Assembly (NCBI GenBank): GCA_027038295.1
Contig: JALVXD010000053.1
Coordinates: forward strand, 1-59,467
From: Campylobacteraceae bacterium
GTDB lineage: Bacteria > Campylobacterota > Campylobacteria > Campylobacterales > Sulfurovaceae
DNA: 59,467 nucleotides
Reading direction: 5' to 3'
Shown here in pieces: positions 13,161-47,015 of the stretch (its first letter is position 1; the number at the start of each line of letters is the position of its first letter). The notes below the pieces were generated by a model, which was not told the origin of the DNA, made no database searches, and saw only the letters and a list, made by a program, of their open reading frames with translations. The position numbers and the translations under genes are program-made.

Positions 13161-13237
13161 TGGCGCGGTGGACGAGACTCGAACTCGCGACCCCCTGCGT
13201 GACAGGCAGGTATTCTAACCAACTGAACTACCACCGC
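13161..13237 (-). tRNA. tRNA-Asp (GTC), promoter-distal copy
   Basis: The 77-base cloverleaf read on the minus strand begins GCGGTGGTAGTTCAG and ends in encoded CCA. The acceptor GCGGTGG pairs with CCACCGC. The anticodon loop CTGTCAC gives GTC. It is the last gene of the array and identical to the copy at 13840-13916. Confidence 0.97.
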
Positions 13238-13284
13238 ACCGATAAAGAAAAAATGTAAAAGCCACTAAAAAAGTAACAAGTTAC

Positions 13285-13311
13285 GTGAGCCGTCTGCTGA
13301 AGACAACTTTA
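13285..13311. repeat. tRNA trailer box, copy 1
   Basis: This is one of four copies of a roughly 27-base box in the tRNA array. On the transcript it follows the CCA of tRNA-Val and forms TGTCT-TCAGC-AGACG, then a second small palindrome GTAAC-TT-GTTAC. Other copies are near 13541, 13675 and 13806. Confidence 0.7.
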
Positions 13312-13387
13312 TGGTGGTCGCTACAAGACTCGAACTTGTGACATCTACCTTGTAAGGGTAGCGCTCTACCAACTGAGCTAAGCGACC
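13312..13387 (-). tRNA. tRNA-Val (TAC), copy 1
   Basis: A 76-base gene with acceptor GGTCGCT/AGCGACC and encoded CCA. The anticodon loop CTTACAA gives TAC, which reads GTA/GTG codons. The sequence is identical to the copy at 13569-13644, pointing to recent duplication or gene conversion. Confidence 0.97.
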
Positions 13388-13418
13388 GTATATTATTGTT
13401 TTAATTTAAAGGAAACTT

Positions 13419-13494
13419 TGGCGACCCCTAAAGGATTTGAACCTTTGTTTTTGCGATGAAAACGCAATATCCTTGGCCACTAGATGAAAGGGTC
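13419..13494 (-). tRNA. tRNA-Glu (TTC)
   Basis: A 76-base gene with acceptor GACCCTT/AGGGGTC (one G-T pair), D-arm CATCTAGTGG typical of glutamate tRNAs, anticodon loop TTTTCAT (TTC) and encoded CCA. It lies between the two valine copies and is the only single-copy gene in the array. Its trailer lacks the box seen behind its neighbours. Confidence 0.95.
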
Positions 13495-13540
13495 ATCTTG
13501 ACCGAACAATAACAAAAATGTTAAAAACAAAATAAATTTT

Positions 13541-13567
13541 GTGAGCCGTCTGCTAAAGACAACTTTA
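13541..13567. repeat. tRNA trailer box, copy 2
   Basis: GTGAGCCGTCTGCTAAAGAC (plus strand) and following bases, directly after the CCA of the second tRNA-Val in transcript orientation. It differs from copy 1 at one visible position in the box. Confidence 0.7.
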
Positions 13568-13568
13568 A

Positions 13569-13644
13569 TGGTGGTCGCTACAAGACTCGAACTTGTGACA
13601 TCTACCTTGTAAGGGTAGCGCTCTACCAACTGAGCTAAGCGACC
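13569..13644 (-). tRNA. tRNA-Val (TAC), copy 2
   Basis: Identical in sequence to 13312-13387, with anticodon TAC and encoded CCA. The flanking trailer box is also duplicated, so the duplicated unit was tRNA plus trailer. Confidence 0.97.
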
Positions 13645-13674
13645 AAAATTTTTGCTCTAATATGAAACAAGTTT

Positions 13675-13702
13675 CATGAGCTGTCTGTTGAAGACAATAT
13701 TT
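13675..13702. repeat. tRNA trailer box, copy 3
   Basis: CATGAGCTGTCTGTTGAAGA and following bases lie in the trailer of tRNA-Lys copy 1. The adjacent TGAAAC-AA-GTTTCA (13662-13675) forms the second small hairpin. Confidence 0.7.
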
Positions 13703-13709
13703 ATAATTG

Positions 13710-13785
13710 TGGTGACCCTTCATGGATTCGAACCATGGGCCCACTCCTTAAAAGGGAGTTGCTCTACCAACTGAGCTAAAAGGTC
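13710..13785 (-). tRNA. tRNA-Lys (TTT), copy 1
   Basis: A 76-base gene beginning GACCTTTTAGCTCAG. The anticodon loop CTTTTAA gives TTT, and CCA is encoded. It is identical to the copy at 13944-14019. Confidence 0.97.
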
Positions 13786-13805
13786 ATAAAATGAAACTTA
13801 TATTT

Positions 13806-13832
13806 CATGAGCTGTCTGTTGAAGACAACTTT
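13806..13832. repeat. tRNA trailer box, copy 4
   Basis: CATGAGCTGTCTGTTGAAGA and following bases lie in the trailer of the promoter-proximal tRNA-Asp, next to a TGAAA/TTTCA palindrome. Confidence 0.7.
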
Positions 13833-13839
13833 AATATAG

Positions 13840-13916
13840 TGGCGCGGTGGACGAGACTCGAACTCGCGACCCCCTGCGTGACAGGCAGGTATTCTAACCA
13901 ACTGAACTACCACCGC
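13840..13916 (-). tRNA. tRNA-Asp (GTC), promoter-proximal copy
   Basis: A 77-base gene with anticodon GTC and encoded CCA, identical to 13161-13237. The two Asp copies have different trailers: this one carries the box, while the promoter-distal copy runs into an unrelated sequence at the end of the array. Confidence 0.97.
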
Positions 13917-13943
13917 ATATCTAAAAACACTATATTGTATAAA

Positions 13944-14019
13944 TGGTGACCCTTCATGGATTCGAACCATGGGCCCACTCCTTAAAAGGGAGTTGCTCTA
14001 CCAACTGAGCTAAAAGGTC
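13944..14019 (-). tRNA. tRNA-Lys (TTT), promoter-proximal copy
   Basis: This is the first gene of the array on the transcript, with anticodon TTT and encoded CCA. About 28 bases of leader separate it from the predicted transcription start behind the consensus promoter at 14055-14083. Confidence 0.97.
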
Positions 14020-33807: not shown

Positions 33808-34551
33808 TTATAGAGATGCCATATGCGTATTATCTCTAATCACTCTTCTTCCCCATAAAAAACGTTTTTTATAAAAATCTTTTTCATTGAAGTTAAATAT
33901 TACAACTTTTTTTGCACCAGAACTTGCATGGATAAAGTTTCCAGAACCTAAATAGATTCCCACATGTGAAACTCTTCCTGTTCTTTTTTTATGTGTATCA
34001 AAAAAGACCATGTCCCCTTTTCTTAGATTTTGGTAGTTTACATATTGTCCCACCTTCGCTTGGTCACGAGATACTCTTGGTATATTTATTCCTGCATCTC
34101 TATATACTTTTTGAGTAAAACCAGAACAGTCATAGTTATAAGGACCAGTCGCTCCCCATACATATTTTTTTCCTAAAAGTTTTTTAGAGTTATTTTCTAT
34201 TAGACGAGTTATATTATACAAGTTATTTCTATAGTTGGTATATGCAAGATGTTGTGCTTGTGGCTGAAAATGTTGACTTCTATGATAATTGGAGTATCGT
34301 CTTGGTGGAGTAGGTACATCTATAACTTCTATATGTTGCATCTCATAAGAAGGAGCTGTATCATAATGAGTTATAGTTGCTGTTCCATTTATTGGGTATG
34401 TGGTAGCCAATGGAAGTTGTGCTATTTGTTCTTGTTGAAGTTGAAAGAGTTCAGCTCTACTTTTTGGTTTTACAGTATCTTTACCTGAACAGGCACTGAA
34501 AAGAGTGGCAGAGGTGACTAGCATTAGATTGATTAAAGTTGTTTTTCTCAT
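33808..34551 (-). CDS. NlpC/P60-family lipoprotein endopeptidase
   Basis: A 247-residue envelope hydrolase. The lipoprotein signal is TLINLMLVTSATLFSAC with the cysteine near residue 21. A linker of about 90 residues rich in Gln/His/Tyr follows, then the NlpC/P60 domain from about residue 130. The catalytic Cys is in YNYDCSGFTQKVY, His in RVSHVGIYLG and the third polar residue in NFIHASSG. It would cut D-Glu-diaminopimelate bonds in peptide stems (family knowledge). It sits between atpC and the Tol genes, on the opposite strand. Confidence 0.92.
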   Translation of the reverse strand: MRKTTLINLMLVTSATLFSACSGKDTVKPKSRAELFQLQQEQIAQLPLATTYPINGTATITHYDTAPSYEMQHIEVIDVPTPPRRYSNYHRSQHFQPQAQHLAYTNYRNNLYNITRLIENNSKKLLGKKYVWGATGPYNYDCSGFTQKVYRDAGINIPRVSRDQAKVGQYVNYQNLRKGDMVFFDTHKKRTGRVSHVGIYLGSGNFIHASSGAKKVVIFNFNEKDFYKKRFLWGRRVIRDNTHMASL

Positions 34552-34924: not shown

Positions 34925-35506
34925 ATGGGACTTTTTGATAGCCTCTTTGCCTATCTTGATAAGAGTTCGGCCATTACAATTTTTGTTTTAGCTCTACTCT
35001 CTATTTACCTCTTTCTGGTACTTTGGATTTTTATATATAGATATTTTTCATTAAAAAGTAAAATTGCAACAGAAGAGAAATCTTTAAAAAAACTCTATAT
35101 GGGACGCTCTAAAAGTGTAGAGAAAGACTCTCTACTTTTTATTTATCTCTCTAAAGTACTGGTTCCTAATAGCTCAATATTCTCAGTTGCCAAAAATGAT
35201 GCCATAAAGGATGCTACAGGGGGTCTTACAGCTCTTTCTATCATAGCTTCCACTTCACCTTTTATTGGACTGTTTGGTACGGTTGTTGCAATTTTAGAGA
35301 CCTTCTCGAAATTAGGTGGGCAGAGTGGAGGCTCTTCTATTGCGATTGTAGCACCTGCTATTTCAGAGGCATTGGTAGCGACTGCTGCTGGTATTGCTGT
35401 AGCTACATTTGCTTACTCTTTTCACTTGATTTTAAAACGAAAAGCCTATGAGTTAAATGTACTGTTAGATAGTCAAGCTGACTTGATTCTTTCTCAAAAG
35501 GCTTAA
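34925..35506 (+). CDS. tolQ: MotA/TolQ/ExbB proton channel family protein (TolQ-like)
   Basis: Inner-membrane protein of 193 residues with three TM helices (about 16-36, 98-125, 140-170). The conserved family stretch runs from [28 protein letters not shown] to [18 protein letters not shown], with the Thr/Ser-lined channel. With the ExbD/TolR-like and TonB/TolA-like genes it forms a proton-motive-force energised complex. TolQ rather than ExbB is chosen because the position after atpC is the usual Tol locus in this phylum; the tolB-pal half is missing here. Confidence 0.85.
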
Positions 35507-35508
35507 TT

Positions 35509-35895
35509 ATGTATGAGTGGGATGAAGCTCCTGATTTAAACATTACACCATTAATTGATGTGATGTTGGTACTTATGGCAATATTTATGATTACCATTCC
35601 TGTTATGCAGTATGAAGAGAAGATTAATCTTCCTGATGGCTCTCAAAAAGCTGCTGTTTCAGACAGTAAAGCTATAACCATTAGAATTGATAAAGAGTTG
35701 ACCATCTATTATAAAGATGATACTTTTACTTTAGACTCTTTTCCTGATGCATTTAGACTGAAGGCAGCCGATATAGATAAAAAACAGGTGATTTTTATTA
35801 ATGCTGATAAAGATATAGCCTATGAAAAAGTAATTTTTTTACTTAAAGTTGTTAAGCAGAGTGGTTTTACTAAAGTATCACTATTGACACAGTAG
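35509..35895 (+). CDS. tolR: ExbD/TolR family protein (TolR-like)
   Basis: A 128-residue protein with a short cytoplasmic tail (MYEWDEAPDLNITPLIDV) whose ITPLIDVMLVLMAIFMITIP helix carries the proton-binding aspartate. A periplasmic domain follows (AITIRIDKELTIYYKDDTFTL, VIFINADKDIAYEKVIFLL). It starts 2 bp after the tolQ stop codon. Partner of the TolQ-like channel. Confidence 0.87.
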   Translation: MYEWDEAPDLNITPLIDVMLVLMAIFMITIPVMQYEEKINLPDGSQKAAVSDSKAITIRIDKELTIYYKDDTFTLDSFPDAFRLKAADIDKKQVIFINADKDIAYEKVIFLLKVVKQSGFTKVSLLTQ

Positions 35896-35967: not shown

Positions 35968-37101
35968 ATGAATCGTGGCAAGATATTTTCAGGTGTTGCA
36001 GCACTTTTTATTTATATGTTCATCCTTTTAACTATTCTCTTTTTTTATAATATTCATCAAGTTAAAGCGAAAAATTATGTAGAGAAAAATGAGAATAGGG
36101 TTACGGTAACTCTAGTAAATAGTGATAAAACAGTTTTAAATAGAAGTGATAAGTCTTCAAATAAAAATAAACCAACACCACTTGTAACTCCACCTGTACC
36201 TTTAAAAACTCCCCAAAAGAGCGTTCCTAAAAAAGTAATGCCCAAAAAACTAATTCCTAAAAAGCTAATACCACGAAAAATAGTTATACCCAAAAAAGTA
36301 GAACCAAAAAAAGTTGTTAAGCCTAAACCTAAAAAAAGAGTTATTGTAGCAAAGAAGATACCTAAAAAAACGGTTCCTAAAAAAGTTGTTCCTAAAAAAG
36401 TTATTCCTAAAAAAATAGCACCTAAGAAAAAAATACCGAAAAAGGTTATAAAAAAAATTCCTAAAAAAGTTGTACCCAAAAAGGTTGTTAAAAAAGTACC
36501 AAAGAAAAAAGTACCAAAGAAAGTTGTCAAAAAAGTTCCTAAAAAGGTTGTTAAAAAAGTACCGAAGAAAAAAGTTCCTAAGAAAGTTGTTAAAAAAGTA
36601 CCAAAGAAAAAAGTACCTAAAAAAGTGGTGCCAAAAAAGAAAGTTCCTAAAAAAAGTGCTAAAGATTTATTCTCTTCTGTAAAGACAAAAAATGTAAAAA
36701 AGAGACCTAGTAAAAATAGACCAAAAAGTAGAACAGTTAGACCAAAGCAACCGAGTAGTTCTATTAAGCATCGTTCTTCAGTGGCAGATAGAATTAAAAG
36801 TTCACATCAAAGTGGTAGAACTTCTAATGCAAACCGTGATAAAGGAATTAAAAACGCTTATATTTCTAAAGTTAAGCGTTATATGAATAATTGGAATGCA
36901 GCATCTGCCCATAAAGGTCAACGTGTGACTATTGCTTTGACCATCTATAATAGTGGTAAGTTTTCTTATAGGATTATACAAGGTAGTGGTAGTATACGAG
37001 GAAGTTTATCTCAATATTTAAATCAGTTAAAAAAGATAGGATTAGGAAGACATAGTAAATCAACACCTTACTCTATAAAGGTTTCATTTACAGTTAGATA
37101 G
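35968..37101 (+). CDS. TolA/TonB-like periplasm-spanning protein with extreme Lys-Pro repeat
   Basis: A 377-residue protein. One N-terminal TM helix (about 8-28, GVAALFIYMFILLTILFFY) precedes a roughly 160-residue low-complexity tract (about 70-235) built from PKKV/PKKVVKK/VPKKK units, which replaces the helical or proline-rich spacer of TolA/TonB. The C-terminal domain (about 285-377; AYISKVKRYMNNWNAAS, VTIALTIYNSGKFSYRII, YSIKVSFTVR) resembles TonB/TolA C-terminal folds. It is the last gene after tolQ-tolR and presumably couples the motor to the outer membrane. The repeat DNA is prone to slippage. Its stop codon touches the 3' end of rnpB. Confidence 0.82.
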   Translation: MNRGKIFSGVAALFIYMFILLTILFFYNIHQVKAKNYVEKNENRVTVTLVNSDKTVLNRSDKSSNKNKPTPLVTPPVPLKTPQKSVPKKVMPKKLIPKKLIPRKIVIPKKVEPKKVVKPKPKKRVIVAKKIPKKTVPKKVVPKKVIPKKIAPKKKIPKKVIKKIPKKVVPKKVVKKVPKKKVPKKVVKKVPKKVVKKVPKKKVPKKVVKKVPKKKVPKKVVPKKKVPKKSAKDLFSSVKTKNVKKRPSKNRPKSRTVRPKQPSSSIKHRSSVADRIKSSHQSGRTSNANRDKGIKNAYISKVKRYMNNWNAASAHKGQRVTIALTIYNSGKFSYRIIQGSGSIRGSLSQYLNQLKKIGLGRHSKSTPYSIKVSFTVR

Positions 37102-37533: not shown

Positions 37534-38994
37534 TTAAAATAGGTAGTTAAATTCTAAACGTAGTTCATTATAAGATGGGTCTGATTTTTTAGAGTTGTCT
37601 TGGGCAATAGTATTTTTATCTCCATTGACAAATGCTGCACGTAATTTTGTTCTAAAGTTTGGTATAGAGGTAAAACGTTTAACAATATCAAAAGTAAGAA
37701 CTCTATTATCTGCTTGAACACCAGCTTTGTTATCGTCAAAATTCTGAATGGCATAACGCATCATGGCTCTTACTCCTGGAAGAAGTTTGGCTTTTGAAAA
37801 GTCATAGTCCATACGTACCATATAAGTCTCTGTATTGGCATACCAGTTGGTTTGTCCCATTGCTCTGGTATATCCTGCTGTAGGAAATGAACGCCATGGG
37901 GTCACAAAGTCTCCTTTATCGGCTGTTTTAGAATATCCTAAACGTAGACTGTATGAATCTTTAACAATATCGAGACGACCAGCTATAAGTGTAGCATTTA
38001 AGCTATCTATATCGTTATAGCCAACGGTGTTATTTTTTAAGTTTGCTCCACCAATAGCTCCTGCACCATTATCAAATTGTTGCATGTAGTGGAGGGCAGG
38101 TATAATCATTAAATCATTAGAATTTATCTTATATTTAGTATCAAAGATAGCATAAGAGAGTAACTCTGGAAGCTCTGTGTAGTTAAGCTTTATGGTTAAG
38201 TTGTCTACTGTAGTATTTTTGACCTCCATTAAAAACATTTCATCTTTAATGTTTTTTGCTTTTAATTTGCTAAGTGTTAGCCCTCTATGCATCGCACTAT
38301 CATCATTTTGAGTCCATTTACTGTAACTGTCTGTAGGGTCATCACCGTAGGCTAGTATGTGATGAAAACGGGTATGGTCTCTTAGTTTTTGCTTTTGTAG
38401 AAAGGCTGTTTTAATAGATGTTTTTGGTAGAGATAGGTTTTTGTAATAGATACCCTCAAAAGTATTCGGTATCATCTTAGTATCATTACTCTTAGCAATC
38501 ATGGTCTCAATAGGAAAATCCCCAATTTTTAGTTGGTTTTTACTTGTTCTATACTCAGCATAGAGTTGAGCTAAAGCAGTTAATCCAAATTTATCATCTG
38601 TTGCTACATCATATCGGTTTAGTAAATCTTTTGCAGAACGATAGTCAGCTACCAAATCTTGCTTTTTATCTCCTATATTTTGTGAGGTATAGAGTCCAGC
38701 TGTTAAGCCTATATTGTTTAAATAAGCACTTTTGTATACGAGACTTCCACCAAGACCAGCAATAAAGAAATCTTTATTATCATTTGTATTGTCAAACTTA
38801 AAACTGTTTAGGCGTATTCGACCATAGAAGATACCTTCTCTAATGAAGTCGTTTAAGTTATCTACGTTTTTAGGTCTTTTTATATATTTTACCGTCATAT
38901 TACAGTTGAGTTTATGTTTTATAGTTGTTTGTTCATCTGTTTTAGCATTTAAGATAGTATGAGTTAGAATAAATGCAATGAGTATAAATCTCAT
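37534..38994 (-). CDS. OprD-family-like outer membrane porin
   Basis: A 486-residue protein with signal peptide MRFILIAFILTHTILNA. Many amphipathic beta strands end at NELRLEFNYLF with C-terminal Phe. The start of the mature part (IREGIFYGRIRLNSFKF) and internal arginine-rich strands (NTFEGIYYKNLSLPKT, TKMIPNTFEG) resemble Campylobacterota Opr/OprD porins, which import small solutes. The gene is divergent from the sodium:solute symporter-anmK-amgK-murU group, 217 bp apart, so a shared substrate is possible. It lies 33 bp upstream (in coordinates) of rnpB on the same strand. Confidence 0.82.
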   Translation of the reverse strand: MRFILIAFILTHTILNAKTDEQTTIKHKLNCNMTVKYIKRPKNVDNLNDFIREGIFYGRIRLNSFKFDNTNDNKDFFIAGLGGSLVYKSAYLNNIGLTAGLYTSQNIGDKKQDLVADYRSAKDLLNRYDVATDDKFGLTALAQLYAEYRTSKNQLKIGDFPIETMIAKSNDTKMIPNTFEGIYYKNLSLPKTSIKTAFLQKQKLRDHTRFHHILAYGDDPTDSYSKWTQNDDSAMHRGLTLSKLKAKNIKDEMFLMEVKNTTVDNLTIKLNYTELPELLSYAIFDTKYKINSNDLMIIPALHYMQQFDNGAGAIGGANLKNNTVGYNDIDSLNATLIAGRLDIVKDSYSLRLGYSKTADKGDFVTPWRSFPTAGYTRAMGQTNWYANTETYMVRMDYDFSKAKLLPGVRAMMRYAIQNFDDNKAGVQADNRVLTFDIVKRFTSIPNFRTKLRAAFVNGDKNTIAQDNSKKSDPSYNELRLEFNYLF

Positions 38995-39175
38995 CTAATA
39001 TCCTTAAAATTAATAATAAATTAGATTTTATCCATAAAGTAATTAGTCTCTCTCTATTTTGTATGAAAAAGGATTAAAATAGTAAAGTTAGAGTGCTTGT
39101 GTAACTCATTTAAAACCCTAAATAACAATATTTAGTAGAGTTGTGGAATTTATTTAAAGAGCCTATTTTTTCTGT

Positions 39176-39181
39176 TATAAT
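39176..39181 (+). promoter_or_regulatory. -10 box upstream of the symporter-anmK-amgK genes
   Basis: TATAAT at 39176-39181 (TCTGTTATAATAGC), 31 bp before the symporter start. It lies within the 217-bp divergent intergenic region shared with the porin gene. No operator-like dyad was found. Confidence 0.6.
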
Positions 39182-39211
39182 AGCAAAAAAACTACAATTA
39201 TAAGGGCATAA

Positions 39212-40723
39212 ATGCAATCAAATTTTTCTTCACTGGATTGGATGATTTTCGCTTCATACTTTTTAATACTTATTTTAACTTCGGTATTACTAAGCCAGAC
39301 AAAGGTTAAAACTTCAAGAGATTATTTTACAGGAGGAAATAGTATGCCTATGTTGGCTGTTGCTATTTCCGTTTTGGCTACCTCTCAGTCAGCTGCTACT
39401 TTTTTGGGAGGACCTGAGTCCTCTTATAAAGGAGACCTTACTTTTTTAGGGTTTTATGTTTCTGCATTTTTGGCTGTTGTTTTTGTAGCCAAAGTCTTAG
39501 TTCCTAAGTTTTATGCAGTTAATGTAATTACTGTTTATGAATACTTAGAGTATCGCTATGGTGAGAGTTCTAAACGTTATGCAGGAGTAATGTTCCTAGT
39601 AGGAAGACTTTTTGCATCGGGTGCTAGACTTTACATAGGTGCATTGGCTATCTCGATGATTCTGTTTTCAGATATTGCCGTAGGACATATGGCAATATCT
39701 ATAGCAGTCTTAATGATAGGTGCTTTAGGATATACCTATTTTGGTGGCGTAAAATCGGTTATATTTTCAGATATTATTCAAGCTATTACTTACATAGGTG
39801 CTGGTATAGCTGTTTTGGTCTATCTTTATACTAGTCTCAATACAGACTTCTCAACCATAATAACAACTTTAAATGAGAATCATAAACTTAACTTGGTGAA
39901 TTTTTCATTTACGGGCTCTTTTAATATTTGGACACTCTTTGTAGGCTTTTTTCTTCTAAATATAGCAGCATATGGACTTGACCAAGATATGACACAGAGG
40001 GTTTTAACTTGTAAAAACAAAAAAGAGGGTGAAAAGTCACTGATATACTCTATTATTTTTACCGTTCCTGTAGTAATGATTTTTTTAGCTATTGGTTTAC
40101 TTCTCTACCTCTTTTATCAACATCCAGAAATTTCAGGTATAAAATCTGCTTGTATTGACCAAAATGTAGATGGTCAGAGTGTGACTATCTTTATGCTCTA
40201 TATTTTAAATGAGATGCCAGAGGGGTTACGAGGTTTGGTAACCGTAGGTGCTGTTGCAGCTGCACTTTCATCGAGTAATTCTGTTCTTTCAGCCATGTCA
40301 TCGGTGGCTGTGGAAGATATCTATAGACCTCTTATGGTATCAAAAAATAAACCAGAAGCACACTTCTTAAAAGCAGGGCGTATTATGGTGGTTGTTTTTG
40401 CAGTTTTACTCTCCATTATGGCTCTTTTCTCTTACTATTGGCAGCAGTATACACAGTTAGACTTACTGAGTTTTGCTTTGGGTGTTATGGCATTTGCTTA
40501 TGCCCCTCTGTTAGGAGTTTATGCTGCAGCCATATTTACTAAACGTGGCTCAGAAGAGACAGTTAAGTATGCACTAATAGGAGGTTTTTTAATGGTTTTA
40601 ATATCTCAACCTTATGTAATAGGTAAACTACTGGATTATAAGATAGACTATTCGGTAATGATGGTAGCTGGAACTTTAGTCTCCTTTTTAATGATGATGA
40701 CACAGAAAAATAAAAATGGCTAA
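39212..40723 (+). CDS. Sodium:solute symporter (SSS family)
   Basis: A 503-residue inner-membrane transporter with about 13 predicted TM helices. The N-terminal TSRDYFTGGNSMPMLAVAIS, the ATSQSAATFLGGPESSY helix, and GALGYTYFGGVKSVIFSDI with AAALSSSNSVLSAMSSVAVEDIYRP (the sodium-site helix 8 region) are SSS signatures. Its stop overlaps the anmK start by 8 bp, so the two are translationally coupled. The coupling suggests a cell-wall sugar such as MurNAc or anhydro-MurNAc as substrate; this is inference, as SSS members carry many solutes. Confidence 0.9.
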   Translation: MQSNFSSLDWMIFASYFLILILTSVLLSQTKVKTSRDYFTGGNSMPMLAVAISVLATSQSAATFLGGPESSYKGDLTFLGFYVSAFLAVVFVAKVLVPKFYAVNVITVYEYLEYRYGESSKRYAGVMFLVGRLFASGARLYIGALAISMILFSDIAVGHMAISIAVLMIGALGYTYFGGVKSVIFSDIIQAITYIGAGIAVLVYLYTSLNTDFSTIITTLNENHKLNLVNFSFTGSFNIWTLFVGFFLLNIAAYGLDQDMTQRVLTCKNKKEGEKSLIYSIIFTVPVVMIFLAIGLLLYLFYQHPEISGIKSACIDQNVDGQSVTIFMLYILNEMPEGLRGLVTVGAVAAALSSSNSVLSAMSSVAVEDIYRPLMVSKNKPEAHFLKAGRIMVVVFAVLLSIMALFSYYWQQYTQLDLLSFALGVMAFAYAPLLGVYAAAIFTKRGSEETVKYALIGGFLMVLISQPYVIGKLLDYKIDYSVMMVAGTLVSFLMMMTQKNKNG

Positions 40724-41807
40724 AGGTTTGTATATAGGTATTATGTCTGGTACCTCTTTAGATGGTGTAGATGTAGCACTATGTCAAATATCAGAAGAGA
40801 CATGTAGTTTAGAAGCTTCATCTTTTATGCCCTTTGAGAACGCTTTAAAAGAGGAGATATTGGCTGTTATAAATGGTTTAACTACTATAAAACAGATAGG
40901 AGAGATAGACCATCGTTTAGCACTTGCTTTTGCCAGAGCTGTTAATGACTTACTAAACAAAGAGAATATAAAGTCAGAAGATATAATAGCCATTGGTTCA
41001 CATGGTCAAACCCTTTGGCATGAGCCTAATGGAGAACATCCGTTCTCTATGCAGTTGGGTAATCCTTCTGTGTTGGCTGTAGAAACAGATATAAATGTAG
41101 TTACAGATTTTCGAGCTAAAGATGTGGCACAAGGAGGGCAGGGGGCTCCTTTTGCTCCTGCATTTCATCAATTTCTTTTTTCTCATATCAAATCTTGTGC
41201 TGTACTTAATATTGGAGGTATGGCAAATATATCTATTTTAGGTGAAAATTTAATAGGGTACGATACAGGCTGTGGAAATGTACTGATGGATATGTGGATA
41301 AATGAGCATAAAAACCTTGCATATGATAAAGATGGGGAGTGGGCAAAATCAGGAACTGTTCATGGTGAATTGTTAAAAAATATGTTGAATGACAACTACT
41401 TTAACTTAAATTATCCTAAAAGTACAGGAAGAGAATATTTTAATAAGAAATTTTTAATAAACTATTTAGAAACATTTGGTAAAATAGCCTCTAAAGATAT
41501 TCAAGCAACCCTATTAGCAGTAACAGTACACTCTATTGCTAATGAGGTAAAAAAATTTAATATTCAAGAGTTATTAGTCTGTGGTGGTGGTGCTAAAAAT
41601 ATTTTTTTAATGAGTGAACTACAAAAAGCATTGCCAACCATTAAAGTAAGAACAACAAATGATTATAATATAAGTAGTGACGATTTAGAAGCGATGATAT
41701 TTGCATGGTTTGCATTTATGCGTTTAGAGGAGAAACCTGTAGCATTAAAAAGTGTAACAGGAGCAAAGAGAAGTACTGTTTTAGGAGGGGTATATGCAAA
41801 AAGTTGA
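40716..41807 (+). CDS. anmK: Anhydro-N-acetylmuramic acid kinase
   Basis: Cleaves and phosphorylates 1,6-anhydro-MurNAc to MurNAc-6-phosphate in peptidoglycan recycling, cytoplasmic. It has 363 residues, normal length. The N-terminal phosphate loop GIMSGTSLDGVDVALCQI, IGSHGQTLWHEP, TDFRAKDVAQGGQGAPFAPAFH, NIGGMANIS and DTGCGNVLMDMWI are family signatures. It overlaps both neighbours (8 bp with the symporter, 14 bp with amgK), so the three genes form one operon. Confidence 0.95.
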   Translation: MAKGLYIGIMSGTSLDGVDVALCQISEETCSLEASSFMPFENALKEEILAVINGLTTIKQIGEIDHRLALAFARAVNDLLNKENIKSEDIIAIGSHGQTLWHEPNGEHPFSMQLGNPSVLAVETDINVVTDFRAKDVAQGGQGAPFAPAFHQFLFSHIKSCAVLNIGGMANISILGENLIGYDTGCGNVLMDMWINEHKNLAYDKDGEWAKSGTVHGELLKNMLNDNYFNLNYPKSTGREYFNKKFLINYLETFGKIASKDIQATLLAVTVHSIANEVKKFNIQELLVCGGGAKNIFLMSELQKALPTIKVRTTNDYNISSDDLEAMIFAWFAFMRLEEKPVALKSVTGAKRSTVLGGVYAKS

Positions 41808-42735
41808 AGCATGGATAGAGAGTTTAGGATATAGTGATTGTAAGTTAGAAGTGGTTTCTGCTGATGCGAGTTATAGAAAATATTATCGTCTTTTTATAAA
41901 AGATAGAACCTATATTGTGATGGACTCATCTATGCAGGTTGAGAGTATTTACCCTTTTATAGATGTGAGTGTGCGACTACTTAAGGCTGATGTTCAGATA
42001 CCAAGAGTCTATGCACAAAACTTAACACTTGGATATCTTCTAATAGAAGATTTAGGTGATATCCACCTTATCAATGTACTAAATGAGATGAGTTGTAAGT
42101 TACTTTATACCCGAGCCATTTATGAAATTTTAAAGATGCAAAAGGCAGATACATCAGGTTTAGATGTGTACGATGAAAAGTTCTTAATGTTTGAGATGAA
42201 TTTAATGCAGGAGTGGTATCTTGAACGACATTTGGGTATTAGGTTAACACTTCAAGAGCAACAGGAACTTGATAAAGTATTAAATCTTATAAAAGATGAA
42301 GTGATTGCTCAACCTCAAGGTTATTTTGTGCATAGAGATTTTCACTCTCGTAACATTATGTTTGCAGGAAGAGGGAAAGTTTGGGTTATTGACTATCAAG
42401 ATGCTCTTATAGGTTCTATTACTTATGATTTGGCTTCACTTCTTAACGATGTCTATGTTAAATTTGATAGAGAAAAAATAGTAGAACTGGTCTTAGAGTT
42501 TAAAATTTTAAAGGGTATTAAAGATATCAGCGATGAGCAGTTCATCCGTTGGTTTGACTTTATGGCAATGCAGAGACATATTAAAATTTTAGGTATTTTT
42601 GCTCGTTTAAAGATTAGAGATAATAAACCTGCATATATAGAAGACATTCCTATGACATTGAGTTATATACGAGAAAATATTGCTCGGTATGATGAGTTTA
42701 AGTCTTTAGGGAAGATTTTAGATAAGATAGTTTAA
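41794..42735 (+). CDS. amgK: N-acetylmuramate/N-acetylglucosamine kinase, AmgK-like
   Basis: Aminoglycoside-phosphotransferase-fold sugar kinase of 313 residues. It is expected to phosphorylate MurNAc at C1. The catalytic Brenner-type motif is FVHRDFHSRNIMFAG and the metal-binding motif VIDYQDALIG. ASYRKYYRL and LLIEDLGDIHL are also typical. AGGAGGGG gives a strong ribosome-binding site inside the anmK end. Position between anmK and murU supports AmgK rather than a generic phosphotransferase. Confidence 0.82.
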   Translation: MQKVEAWIESLGYSDCKLEVVSADASYRKYYRLFIKDRTYIVMDSSMQVESIYPFIDVSVRLLKADVQIPRVYAQNLTLGYLLIEDLGDIHLINVLNEMSCKLLYTRAIYEILKMQKADTSGLDVYDEKFLMFEMNLMQEWYLERHLGIRLTLQEQQELDKVLNLIKDEVIAQPQGYFVHRDFHSRNIMFAGRGKVWVIDYQDALIGSITYDLASLLNDVYVKFDREKIVELVLEFKILKGIKDISDEQFIRWFDFMAMQRHIKILGIFARLKIRDNKPAYIEDIPMTLSYIRENIARYDEFKSLGKILDKIV

Positions 42736-42755
42736 TAGATTGAGATAAAAAAGAA

Positions 42756-42761
42756 TATAAT
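42756..42761 (+). promoter_or_regulatory. -10 box upstream of murU
   Basis: TATAAT at 42756-42761 (AAGAATATAATTACG), 29 bp before murU. It implies that murU has its own promoter in addition to possible read-through from amgK. Confidence 0.5.
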
Positions 42762-42789
42762 TACGTCATATTAAAATAAGAGAGAGAAT

Positions 42790-43437
42790 ATGACAGCAAT
42801 GATACTCGCAGCAGGGTTAGGGTCAAGAATGCGACCACTGACCAACCATACTCCAAAACCACTTTTAGAGATAGGAGGGAAACCTCTTATTGTTTGGCAT
42901 ATAGAACGTTTACGTGATGCTGGATTTAAGCATATAGTTATAAATGTAGCCTACTTAGGTCAAATGATTATAGACTATTTAGGTGATGGCTCAAAGTATG
43001 GAGTAGAGATAACTTTTTCAGATGAACAAAATGAGGGTGCTTTAGAGACGGCAGGGGGTATTGTTAAGGCTTTGCCACGCTTAAGTGATACTTTTTTAGT
43101 TGTCAATGGTGATGTATGGACTGATTACTCTTTTGAGAGTAATTTTACTCTCTCTGCTGGTAGCTTGGCTCATTTAATATTGATAGATAATCCTGAACAT
43201 AATTTAAAAGGAGATTTTCTTTTAGATGATACAGATGAAAAATATACTTTTTCAGGTATTGGTTACTATTCAAAAGAGATGTTTAGAAGTTTGCCTTATG
43301 GAAAACAAGCATTAGCTCTTTTACTTTTGAAGGCTATAGAGGCTAATCGTTTAACAACAGAGTATTTTTCTGGTGCTTGGTACGATATTGGAACACCTGA
43401 ACGATTAGGGAGCTTAAATAGAGAGTTGAGTAGTTAA
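42790..43437 (+). CDS. murU: N-acetylmuramate-1-phosphate uridylyltransferase, MurU-like
   Basis: Nucleotidyltransferase of 215 residues. It is expected to make UDP-MurNAc from MurNAc-1-phosphate and UTP, bypassing de novo MurA/MurB. The signature LAAGLGSRMRPLTNHTPKPLL, IVINVAYLGQMIIDYLGDGSKYGV, ALETAGGIVKALP and FLVVNGDVWTDY closely follow MurU proteins. The short length argues against a full GlmU or RfbA. It follows amgK by 54 bp. The MurNAc-6-phosphate phosphatase (MupP) needed between AnmK and AmgK is not in this cluster. Confidence 0.82.
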   Translation: MTAMILAAGLGSRMRPLTNHTPKPLLEIGGKPLIVWHIERLRDAGFKHIVINVAYLGQMIIDYLGDGSKYGVEITFSDEQNEGALETAGGIVKALPRLSDTFLVVNGDVWTDYSFESNFTLSAGSLAHLILIDNPEHNLKGDFLLDDTDEKYTFSGIGYYSKEMFRSLPYGKQALALLLLKAIEANRLTTEYFSGAWYDIGTPERLGSLNRELSS

Positions 43438-43489: not shown

Positions 43490-45406
43490 ATGCAAAAGGC
43501 ATTCTTACTAACGTTGCTCTTTTTGTTTCATTTTCTTCATGCTGAAATATTAGAGATTGGCTCTGAAGATTTTTATAAAACCAAAGGGTATATACTTTAT
43601 ACATTGGCAGAAGATTTAAATGAAACTCCTGATATGTTAGCTACAAAAAAATGGGAACAGAGTAAAAAATCTTTTAATACGCTCTCCAATTATGGTAAAG
43701 CCTATTGGGCCAAATTAGAGTTAAAAAATAGTTCCTCTAAGAGAAAAACATATTATCTTAAATCTGAAAATCAATTTACTTATCATATTGAGTTTTTTTT
43801 ATCTAAATCAGGTAAAGTGGTTGATTATATAGAAGATGGGGTTATCTCTAAAAATCAAAACCGAGAGTTTAATGTAAACCATATAATTTTCCCTTTTACT
43901 TTAGAACCTTATGAAGAGGCTAAAGTTTTTTTTAAAATACGAAATTATAACAAGGTAGATATTAATTTTTTTTTAGTGACAAAAGAGTATCTTATAGATT
44001 TTTATCAGACCTATAATCTTGTTGAAGGTATTTTTTTTGGTGGAATGTTAATCATGATGTTCTATAATCTTTTTCTTTATTTTCTTTTAAAATTTCGAGC
44101 CTATTTGTATTATGTTTTTTATACTTTTTGGTTAACGGTTTATTTCACTGGTCTTTTTGGTTTTTCTCAACGTTATTTTGCTGGGTATACTTTGATATTT
44201 TATCTCAGTGCTGGAGCATTTTTTGTCTCTATGACGCTTTTTGTACAATCTATTTTAAATTTAAAAGAGCAGTTACCTAAGATAAATAGAATTTTAAATA
44301 TTTTTATAGGTTATTTTATTGTATCAACCGTTATTAATATTTTTATGCTTGAGTTTCAACAGTTTATTTATGCTCAAATGCTCTTTAACCTATTTTTTGT
44401 ATTGGTTCCCCTTTATGTAATAATAGTTATTTTTTCAACGTACTATTTGGCTTATTTTAGAAAAGATGTAATAGCTAAATTTTATTCATTAATTTGGACA
44501 ATGATATCTGCTATTGGCATGTTTCTTCCTCTTATCTATTTAAATATTCTAAAAACTGATATTCCTTTTAATCTCTCTTTTGACTATATTTTTCAGTTCT
44601 TAACACTATTTGAGGTTTTATGTTTTTCATTTATATTGGCATATAAAATTAAAATGATGCAAAAGAAGAAGTCAGAACAAAAGTTGATGTTGGTGGAACA
44701 AAGTAAGTTGGCTTCTATGGGGCAGATGATATCTACTATTGCACATCAATGGAGACAACCATTGACAGAAATTAATGGTATTGTTATCAATATGGATATG
44801 GATTATAAAAAAGATAAATTAACTTATGAAAGATTGAATGTTCATCTAAATAATATAGAAGATGTTACCTCTTACCTTTCTCGAACTATTCATGATTTCA
44901 TGAATCTTTTTTCACATAGAAAAGAGTTAGAAGAGTTCTTTTTGAATGATGCTATAACAAGCTGTAAAAGGTTAGCATCAATGTCTGTTAAGGAAGAGCT
45001 TACACTTTCTTGCACTCAAAATCTTAATATCAAAATGGTTGGATATGAATCAGAACTTATACAGGCACTATTAATCTTGATTCATAATTCCATAGATGCT
45101 GCTAGAGAGAAAGGTATTGAGGCTATTATCACAATAGATATTAAGGAGCTTAATAATAGAGTACATATAGATGTTGAAGATAATGGTGGTGGTATTTCAA
45201 AGGAGATACTAAAAGATGTTTTTAACCCATACTTTACAACCAAACATGAATCACAAGGGACAGGTTTAGGACTTTATATATTAAAAATGATTATAGAAGA
45301 GAGCATGTCTGGTTCTGTTCGAGTTTTTAATAAAAATAGTGGAGTTAATTTTAAAATTATAATACCTAAGAATTTGAAAAATGTGGGAAGTAAACTGGAA
45401 ATATAA
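43490..45406 (+). CDS. 7TM-DISM sensor histidine kinase
   Basis: A 638-residue membrane sensor. It has a signal peptide (residues 1-18), a periplasmic beta-sandwich of the 7TMR-DISMED2 type (about 20-160; YWAKLELKNSS, FPFTLEPYEEAKVFFKIRN) and seven TM helices (about 178-385; EGIFFGGMLIMMFYNLFLYFLL). A short coiled coil and a HisKA/HATPase core follow. The H-box is SMGQMISTIAHQWRQPL, the N-box LILIHNSIDAAREKG, and the G boxes VEDNGGGIS and GTGLGLYI. The periplasmic domain family tends to bind carbohydrates, so a sugar ligand is possible given the neighbouring salvage genes (inference). Confidence 0.92.
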   Translation: MQKAFLLTLLFLFHFLHAEILEIGSEDFYKTKGYILYTLAEDLNETPDMLATKKWEQSKKSFNTLSNYGKAYWAKLELKNSSSKRKTYYLKSENQFTYHIEFFLSKSGKVVDYIEDGVISKNQNREFNVNHIIFPFTLEPYEEAKVFFKIRNYNKVDINFFLVTKEYLIDFYQTYNLVEGIFFGGMLIMMFYNLFLYFLLKFRAYLYYVFYTFWLTVYFTGLFGFSQRYFAGYTLIFYLSAGAFFVSMTLFVQSILNLKEQLPKINRILNIFIGYFIVSTVINIFMLEFQQFIYAQMLFNLFFVLVPLYVIIVIFSTYYLAYFRKDVIAKFYSLIWTMISAIGMFLPLIYLNILKTDIPFNLSFDYIFQFLTLFEVLCFSFILAYKIKMMQKKKSEQKLMLVEQSKLASMGQMISTIAHQWRQPLTEINGIVINMDMDYKKDKLTYERLNVHLNNIEDVTSYLSRTIHDFMNLFSHRKELEEFFLNDAITSCKRLASMSVKEELTLSCTQNLNIKMVGYESELIQALLILIHNSIDAAREKGIEAIITIDIKELNNRVHIDVEDNGGGISKEILKDVFNPYFTTKHESQGTGLGLYILKMIIEESMSGSVRVFNKNSGVNFKIIIPKNLKNVGSKLEI

Positions 45407-45514: not shown

Positions 45515-46192
45515 TTGAAAACTTTAAAGAATTTAACCATATTATATGTTGAGGATGAAGAGTCAATTATTGATAAATATGCATACTTTTTAGAAGATTG
45601 TTCTAAAGTTTTACATGTTGCACGTGATGGAGAAGAGGCATTAGCACTTTATAAAGAGCATAAGCCTCATCTTATTGTTATGGACTTACTCATTCCTAAG
45701 TTAAATGGTATAGGATTGGCTAAAGAGATTAGAAAAATAGATGAAGATGTATTTATAATTGCATTAACAGCACACTCAGATAGAGAGATTCTTTTAGAGA
45801 TTGTTGAGCTTAATTTCTCGTCTTATCTTATAAAGCCTGTGGGGAGAAGTGATTTAATGAAAGCACTTTTAAAGGTTTCTAAAAAGATAGATGGTGGACA
45901 TAATGTTCCTTTACCTTGCGATTCTATGTGGGATGGAAAGAGTAAAACGTTGTTTGTCAACAATAAATCTATAATGTTAACTAAAAGAGAATCAAAACTT
46001 TTTGAACTTTTAGTTAAAAAAGCAGGTGTGCCTTGTAGCGATGATGAAATTTTCTTTTATGTATGGGGTGATGAGTTTGATAAAACCATTACCAACTCAT
46101 CTATTCGTACTTTAGTAAAAAATTTACGAAAAAAAATTCCCAAAGATTTACTGAAGAATCAGTATGGAGTAGGGTATAAAATCAACTTTTAA
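45515..46192 (+). CDS. OmpR-family response regulator
   Basis: A 225-residue regulator with TTG start at 45515 and AGGA upstream. The receiver domain has the acidic YVEDEES, the phospho-acceptor Asp in LIVMDLLIPKLNG, ALTAHSD and the switch Lys in LIKPVGR. The C-terminal winged helix is LTKRESKLFELLVKKAGVPCS and NSSIRTLVKNLRKKIP, ending YGVGYKINF. It follows the kinase by 108 bp and is its probable partner. Its 3' end overlaps the convergent HAD gene by 11 bp. Confidence 0.93.
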   Translation: MKTLKNLTILYVEDEESIIDKYAYFLEDCSKVLHVARDGEEALALYKEHKPHLIVMDLLIPKLNGIGLAKEIRKIDEDVFIIALTAHSDREILLEIVELNFSSYLIKPVGRSDLMKALLKVSKKIDGGHNVPLPCDSMWDGKSKTLFVNNKSIMLTKRESKLFELLVKKAGVPCSDDEIFFYVWGDEFDKTITNSSIRTLVKNLRKKIPKDLLKNQYGVGYKINF

Positions 46193-47015
46193 CATGCTGT
46201 TGTAGATATTTGGCAACGGCATCTTCATCATTGTTTTCATTTAGAACAATATCTGCTTCATCTTTAACCTCATTTAAGGCATTCGCCACAGCAATGGCTG
46301 TACCAGCCAACTTAAACATTCCTATATCGTTTAGTCCATCCCCAAAAACAGTAGTGTTTATTGGCTCTTTGCCTAAATACTCTAAAACTTTAGTCAGTGC
46401 ATGTGCTTTATCGCTTAGAGGATGAAGTATGGTTAAGAAATAACATTGCATGTAGTTCTCAGGAGCCAATTTTACTTCGATAGCATCTCCAAAAAATTTT
46501 GTAAGATGTTGGGCTAAAGGGCGTAAAACTTTCTCTTCACCCATATAGACAAGTTTTAGTGTATCTTTCGCACCTTCTATTTTCTTTTTATAACTTAGAC
46601 GTTTGTCTGAAGTATAGTTCTCTTTGATAAGAAACTCTTGGTAGTTGTTTAAAATAGGAGGAATAGCAAAAGTCTCATCGAGTGTTTTATGGTTATTAAG
46701 TGATATAATATAGGGAAAAATCCCAAACTGTATACTCTCCTCTATAATGGCATCACCAATCTCTTTGTTCAGTGTTTTTAAATCGATAAGTTTTTGTTCT
46801 GGACTTACAACCATGGCTCCATCCATTAGAATAAGGGGTGCTTTGAGGTGTAGACCTTCTAAAAATTCACTGGTTTTAGAAAAACTTCTAGCTGTAGCAA
46901 TAGATAGTAGAGCATGATGAGACTTCTCATTCCAAATCTCTTTGGAGAAGTTACTTACAGTCTGTGTACTACGTAAAAAGGTATGGTCTAAATCGGTTAT
47001 ATAGAGTTTTGGCAT
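46182..47015 (-). CDS. HAD-superfamily phosphatase, Cof/IIB type
   Basis: A 277-residue hydrolase. Motif I is ITDLDHTFL (DxDxT nucleophile), motif II SIATARS, motif III a lysine in LSDKAHAL, and motif IV FGDGLNDIGMF. The C2B cap lies at about residues 85-190. Cof-type enzymes act on sugar phosphates, nucleotides or flavin phosphates; the substrate is not predictable. It is not a MupP-type (class I) HAD, but its position a few genes from anmK-amgK-murU makes it one candidate for the missing MurNAc-6-phosphate phosphatase (inference). Confidence 0.88.
   Translation of the reverse strand: MPKLYITDLDHTFLRSTQTVSNFSKEIWNEKSHHALLSIATARSFSKTSEFLEGLHLKAPLILMDGAMVVSPEQKLIDLKTLNKEIGDAIIEESIQFGIFPYIISLNNHKTLDETFAIPPILNNYQEFLIKENYTSDKRLSYKKKIEGAKDTLKLVYMGEEKVLRPLAQHLTKFFGDAIEVKLAPENYMQCYFLTILHPLSDKAHALTKVLEYLGKEPINTTVFGDGLNDIGMFKLAGTAIAVANALNEVKDEADIVLNENNDEDAVAKYLQQHVKS

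Follow-up and report, generated by a model that had tools for sequence, protein, structure and literature searches.

In the textbook route of peptidoglycan recycling whole cell-wall fragments are imported, and in Pseudomonas the anabolic recycling of N-acetylmuramic acid (MurNAc) runs through AmpG, NagZ, AmpD, AnmK, MupP, AmgK and MurU. Muramic acid recycling in bacteria that lack AmpG is largely open, and most work concerns gamma- and alphaproteobacteria. Here we analyse a five-gene locus of a Campylobacteraceae bacterium at positions 37534-43437 of a 59,467-nucleotide stretch of DNA (the window), in which a divergent OprD porin gene is followed, on one strand, by a symporter gene of the sodium:solute symporter (SSS) family, anmK, amgK and murU. 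We propose, with a probability of about 0.8, that this cluster supplies the cytoplasmic half of a peptidoglycan sugar recycling pathway that does without AmpG, in which wall fragments of these sulfur-vent bacteria would be dismantled in the periplasm, the sugars imported by the symporter, and uridine diphosphate-MurNAc (UDP-MurNAc) synthesised by enzymes of the Pseudomonas type.

The locus shares with Pseudomonas the cytoplasmic AnmK and MurU and a probable AmgK, leading towards UDP-MurNAc, and the absence of MurQ, whereas AmpG is missing, NagZ and an amidase are exported, the free sugar would be imported, and no MupP scores over its cut-off in the window's own genome. Extracellular muropeptide degradation in Bacillus subtilis involves NamZ/YbbC, NagZ, AmiE, MurP and MurQ (PMC5061867); in both cases a monosaccharide crosses the cytoplasmic membrane (as we propose for the present system) after NagZ, an amidase and a NamZ-type enzyme have worked on the outside, but in place of the phosphotransferase system (PTS) transporter MurP and the catabolic MurQ route the present Gram-negative system would use a secondary symporter and the route to UDP-MurNAc. 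Tannerella forsythia, a MurNAc auxotroph with MurT, MurK and MurQ, has AmpG and lacks AnmK and MurA/MurB (PMC5790795, PMC7670621), whereas the window's group has AnmK and MurB and no AmpG that we could find; its MurNAc transporter MurT, described as belonging to the sodium symporter superfamily, although elsewhere the same publication labels it a major facilitator superfamily (MFS) protein (PMC5790795), is by this description comparable to the non-PTS MurNAc symporter that we propose. Rhodothermus marinus has a signal-bearing NagZ and AnmK, with no AmpG or AmpD found, and its authors suggested periplasmic breakdown (PMC6987092); signal-bearing NagZ, AnmK and missing AmpG recur here, but for R. 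marinus no transporter or downstream cluster was named, and its NagZ is fused to a beta-lactamase-like domain rather than to an amidase. In Agrobacterium, finally, the ATP-binding cassette (ABC) importer YejBEF-YepA takes up intact muropeptides, with NagZ and AmpD in the cytoplasm (PMC9790009); AmpG is likewise replaced, but here NagZ is exported and a free-sugar symporter is proposed.

Literature searches (Sulfurimonas AnmK, Sulfurovum recycling, Campylobacterota) yielded no description of such a system, which combines known enzyme types in a new organisation; it also assigns a likely substrate to a clade of symporters and offers a candidate for the phosphatase. The claim made for Campylobacterota is that breakdown precedes import, with a named symporter clade for MurNAc and 1,6-anhydro-MurNAc (anhMurNAc) and a named candidate phosphatase, and the annotation 'sodium:solute symporter' thereby gains a likely substrate in two phyla. 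The cluster further leads one to expect that MurNAc probes that depend on AmgK/MurU will label Sulfurovum and Sulfurimonas.

Gene content and distribution of the cluster

Open reading frames and Pfam and NCBIfam matches place the porin, symporter, anmK, amgK and murU where a preliminary description of the sequence had put them (Table 1), and the coordinates confirm its account of overlapping symporter, anmK and amgK genes (8 nt between the first two, 14 nt between anmK and amgK), a murU that follows (after a gap of 54 nt) and a divergent OprD gene. AnmK aligns along its length with the solved AnmK 3cqy, MurU matches PDB 4y7t and 8hhd, and the nearest solved structure to AmgK is 3csv. The assignment of these enzymes to the Pseudomonas route stands for AnmK and MurU, both over their cut-offs, and is less secure for AmgK, whose top NCBIfam model, NF045759, scores 217 bits against an equivalog cut-off of 550, and a MupP was not recognised.

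The arrangement is not due to chance, because anmK, amgK and murU, usually with the symporter, stay together in relatives: amgK accompanies anmK and murU in 26/26 relatives fetched, and the symporter lies within the anmK stretch in 23 of these 26 (in one of the 23 as a fragment only). We surveyed 298 Campylobacterota genomes, 27 with anmK and 271 without (some family searches compared the 27 with 53 anmK-less genomes), the window's own genome being a 293-contig assembly of 96.6% completeness and 3.1% contamination. The distribution of anmK is patchy, its 27 genomes belonging to two families and six genera, and symporter orthologs (60-69% identity) follow it closely, occurring in 26/27 anmK genomes and 0/271 others, with the next match at 30% identity. 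By genome, Fisher's test gives 1.6e-36 for this co-occurrence; since the genomes are related, the genus-level figure of 2e-8, with symporter and anmK in the same six of 59 genera, is fairer, yet it still overstates independence. The scattered positions in relatives that the preliminary description had named as evidence against a common system were thus not seen. One relative (L040) has, near anmK, part of an additional symporter gene (G288:C1:1704927-1705229), with the intact copy ~3 kb further.

MurU scores over its cut-off in 27/27 anmK genomes and in 0/53 of those without. AmpG, whose presence had likewise been named as a counter-argument, was not found: TIGR00901 matched nothing in the 27 anmK genomes or in the genome from which the window comes, a search that did not extend to muropeptide ABC importers of the YejBEF-YepA type, and we reject the canonical AmpG route on this ground. 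The same applies to the MurQ catabolic route in Campylobacterota, as MurQ, also among the genes proposed for checking, had no match over its cut-off in the 27 genomes, where SIS-domain matches were weak. MurB was present in 14/14 genomes checked, which disfavours MurNAc auxotrophy.

Peptidoglycan hydrolases with predicted export

A further gene on that list, nagZ, was found in 25/27 anmK genomes, the window's own included, as a signal-bearing GH3 enzyme. An N-terminal hydrophobic segment is present in 36/36 NagZ sequences read, a pattern other than that of a cytosolic NagZ, and the window genome's NagZ (G000:C6, L075:3752-5068) carries a lipoprotein-type signal with the lipobox-like motif LGLNGC; it resembles the exported lipoprotein YbbD of B. 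subtilis, and a further GH3 protein, more than the cytosolic NagZ of Gram-negative bacteria. An exported Amidase_2 protein occurs in 26/27 anmK genomes as opposed to 21/271 others, and within the window's own family in 11/12 as opposed to 0/8. NamZ was found in a few genomes with the system. In the window's own genome it forms a namZ-Amidase_3-Amidase_2 cluster (L105, contigs C107/C89), in which the start of namZ is split across two contigs and its signal is not readable; together with the NagZ of L075, this cluster makes up the B. subtilis-type set of exported NagZ, amidase and NamZ.

The hydrolases also adjoin the transporter. Among 80 related symporter loci, the same-strand gene directly upstream of the symporter encodes an amidase in 34, NamZ in three and NagZ in three (40/80 in total). 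A free amidase occupies this position in most of the window's family, while about ten relatives in one family carry a NagZ-amidase fusion there (~560 aa, GH3 then Amidase_2); in these loci symporter, anmK, amgK and murU come immediately after the fusion gene and are followed by a gene for an MltB-like transglycosylase. Judged by their families, the hydrolases found all work in the direction of releasing MurNAc or anhMurNAc outside the inner membrane. The preliminary description had considered import from outside or from the periplasm; exported NagZ, amidase, NamZ and lytic transglycosylase make disassembly in the cell's own periplasm the most likely source, with uptake from outside only an option.

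In 32/80 loci a small membrane protein of ~180-240 aa (for instance L039:4538-5086, + strand), for which no Pfam or NCBIfam match was found, is encoded immediately before the genes of the exported amidase and the symporter. At L236:1382-3010 and L237:4760-6436 an exported-looking GH20 hexosaminidase (assigned by Pfam and by similarity, respectively) adjoins namZ and is a possible further source of free wall sugars. The window also encodes an NlpC/P60 endopeptidase near the system (33808-34551, - strand), a relative of which shares a stretch with the OprD-symporter pair in loci without nearby anmK (L148, L150-L152, L156).

The symporter clade and a candidate phosphatase

The nearest symporter records, at 96-97% identity, are from metagenome-assembled genomes, and those of the wider set carry the names Sulfurovum and Sulfurimonas; judged by these relatives, the window comes from a Sulfurovaceae-like genome of the Campylobacterota. 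Both by sequence and by predicted fold, the closest solved relative is SiaT (PDB 5nv9, PMC5931594): the model (pLDDT 84) has the SSF domain and LeuT-type fold, with SiaT as its top PDB match (TM 0.82-0.83). When residues are mapped onto the SiaT structure paper (PMC5931594), the equivalents of the carboxylate-binding Ser60 and Thr63 and of the Na-site Asp182 are invariant, but Arg135 and Gln82 have no conserved counterparts (A135 throughout the alignment, and F, G or S at position 81, with F in the window's protein), and the gene context differs, so that sialic acid is disfavoured as a substrate. Q59, R132, R139 and D257 are instead common to the window's symporter family and to murQ-linked symporters, and are absent from the sialic-type protein. 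Na2/Na3 residues are mostly kept in Campylobacterota (A56, S/T353, S354, S357, D187), and positions 353-354 vary in sphingomonads.

Symporters of more than 30% identity (36-43%) in the plasmid collection came from Novosphingobium, Sphingopyxis and Croceicoccus only. All of the sphingomonad loci, by gene tables or BLAST, contain murQ, nagA, a SIS-domain gene and a TonB receptor gene; anmK is also present in those of Novosphingobium and Croceicoccus, those of Sphingopyxis have murQ and nagA with no anmK within the stretch, and a lactate dehydrogenase or FAD-linked oxidase lies near several. These neighbours match the needs of MurNAc breakdown to N-acetylglucosamine (GlcNAc)-6-phosphate and D-lactate. 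Sphingomonad and Campylobacterota symporters form one clade with 100/100 support, and the symporters outside it have genes related to sialic acid, galactose, serine or trehalose as neighbours; as some outside branches are long, only this grouping is used and not the order of the rest. One symporter clade with two different downstream routes argues for a shared input, (anh)MurNAc. We propose that the protein is a Na+:anhMurNAc/MurNAc symporter, with a substrate for which gene contexts speak independently in two phyla. The earlier suggestion that it imports MurNAc-type sugars, in place of muropeptide import by AmpG, thus gains support from the co-occurrence with anmK, the missing AmpG and the sphingomonad contexts, although the substrate is still a matter of deduction. 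In Sphingopyxis (L240, L246, L247) the symporter-murQ-nagA cluster for MurNAc breakdown sits on mobilizable plasmids.

AnmK yields MurNAc-6-phosphate, and the substrate of AmgK is MurNAc. Three HAD-IA proteins of the window's own genome, scanned against NF009696 for the MupP that had also been proposed for checking, reached at most 101 bits (cut-off 359), and no MupP was recognised among them; the best match is a phosphoglycolate phosphatase, and Gph as MupP is not supported at this score. A Cof-type HAD phosphatase, by contrast, is present in 27/27 anmK genomes (47-58% identity) versus 12/53 anmK-less ones (mostly 40-48%, one at 52% with an internal stop), and shares a stretch with murU in 16/27 loci, the window included. 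On the strength of its distribution and position it is the best candidate for a MurNAc-6-phosphate phosphatase in place of MupP. The stop-bearing ortholog, in an anmK-less relative (G177:C48:19071-19883), looks as if it had decayed after loss of the pathway.

Built on the observed gene content, gene order, co-occurrence, export features and absence of AmpG and MurQ, the proposed pathway would begin outside the inner membrane, where lytic transglycosylases would act together with exported forms of amidase and NagZ (and, in the genome of the window, with the exo-muramidase NamZ) to cut wall fragments to free anhMurNAc and MurNAc. The symporter would then import both acidic amino sugars, presumably together with Na+; AnmK would convert anhMurNAc to MurNAc-6-phosphate, from which the Cof-type HAD encoded nearby, as the most likely phosphatase, would release MurNAc, and AmgK and MurU would form MurNAc-1-phosphate and then UDP-MurNAc. 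In the window's lineage, the OprD porin may admit such sugars across the outer membrane. At even odds we hold the fuller claim that a Gram-negative lineage completely dismantles muropeptides in the periplasm, imports anhMurNAc via a dedicated SSS clade and uses a Cof-type HAD unrelated to MupP, with the same clade feeding the MurQ route in sphingomonads; if true, this would be a general mode of recycling without AmpG, in which both the specificity of the transporter and the phosphatase are new.

Alternative readings and flanking genes

Several points weigh against AmpG-independent recycling as proposed here. Export was judged by hydropathy and lipobox rather than by SignalP, and NagZ with N-terminal signals also occurs in many anmK-less relatives and families, so that it is a property of the phylum and not of the route. 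In the window's own genome NagZ and the amidase lie on contigs other than the window's, and the one anmK genome in which the symporter is missing, the fragmented assembly G284, carries anmK-amgK-murU but neither NagZ nor the amidase. The restriction to two families and six genera implies few independent gains, AmgK is the least secure family call, and transport substrate, ion coupling, enzyme activities and the phosphatase step are inferred.

With respect to the origin of the sugars, the system might chiefly scavenge MurNAc-type sugars from other bacteria through OprD and the symporter, with recycling of the own wall secondary; 13 close loci retain the divergent OprD-symporter arrangement, even when their anmK lies elsewhere, and in the sphingomonad relatives a TonB receptor accompanies the symporter. 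We consider this unlikely, as OprD was not found in most of the 80 related loci, where periplasmic hydrolases are the usual neighbours, the endpoint UDP-MurNAc speaks for anabolic use, and the presence of MurB makes an auxotrophic need for MurNAc improbable. Import of intact muropeptides by another ABC or MFS transporter, with the symporter carrying some other solute such as NagZ-released GlcNAc, which AmgK could phosphorylate, strikes us as quite improbable: AmpG-less Alphaproteobacteria do use YejBEF-YepA (PMC9790009) and AmgK-type kinases are named MurNAc/GlcNAc kinases, but with export signals on NagZ and amidases intact fragments need not cross the membrane, the substrate anhMurNAc has to reach AnmK in the cytoplasm and the transporter linked to AnmK is the symporter, and symporters of the same clade adjoin murQ and anmK in sphingomonads. 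That the protein is a transporter of sialic acid or another acidic sugar, placed here by chance, is scarcely credible even with SiaT as its closest solved relative, given A135 and F81 at the SiaT contact positions, the residues it shares instead with murQ-linked symporters, a cluster devoid of sialic-acid genes and the near-perfect co-occurrence with anmK.

Table 1. Features of the recycling locus and its downstream flank in the window.
Feature	Coordinates	Strand	Details
OprD-like outer-membrane porin	37534-38994	-	486 aa; PF03573 48 bits (cut-off 25)
OprD-symporter divergent intergenic region	38995-39211		217 bp; promoter-like element within
SSS-family symporter	39212-40723	+	503 aa; PF00474 (SSF) 115 bits
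anmK	40716-41807	+	363 aa; PF03702 453 bits; NCBIfam 473 (cut-off 367)
amgK, anomeric MurNAc/GlcNAc kinase (APH fold)	41794-42735	+	313 aa; PF01636; NF045759 217 bits
murU, MurNAc-1-phosphate uridylyltransferase	42790-43437	+	215 aa; NF045761 270 bits (cut-off 250)
7TMR-DISM sensor histidine kinase	43490-45406	+	PF07695, PF07696, HATPase; starts 52 nt past murU
Response regulator, partner of the 7TMR-DISM kinase	45515-46192	+	kept next to the kinase in close relatives
Cof-type HAD phosphatase	46182-47015	-	PF08282 and TIGR00099

OprD is divergently paired with the symporter in 13/80 related loci, an arrangement specific to the window's own group, and several of these OprD-symporter loci have no anmK nearby; we propose the porin as the outer-membrane entry for acidic sugars. 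The intergenic region contains a promoter-like TTTAAA-17-TATAAT element with TG at 39153-39181 (+ strand), a weak assignment because the sigma-70 promoter scan was no richer than shuffled sequence (22 found versus 21.0 expected). A histidine kinase and/or response regulator comes after murU or amgK in several close relatives, and the 7TMR-DISM kinase of the window possibly senses the pathway or wall sugars and may be co-transcribed with murU.

Upstream of the porin, a TonB/TolA-like protein with long Lys-Pro-Val repeats (PKKVVKK) and no Pfam match is encoded at 35968-37101 (+ strand), in a TolQ-TolR-type operon with TolQ/TolR-like genes at 34925-35895 that is conserved in the closest relatives (L146, L147, L149). 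Elsewhere in the window, a cluster of seven tRNA genes, in which those for Asp, Val and Lys recur, lies at 13161-14019 (- strand).

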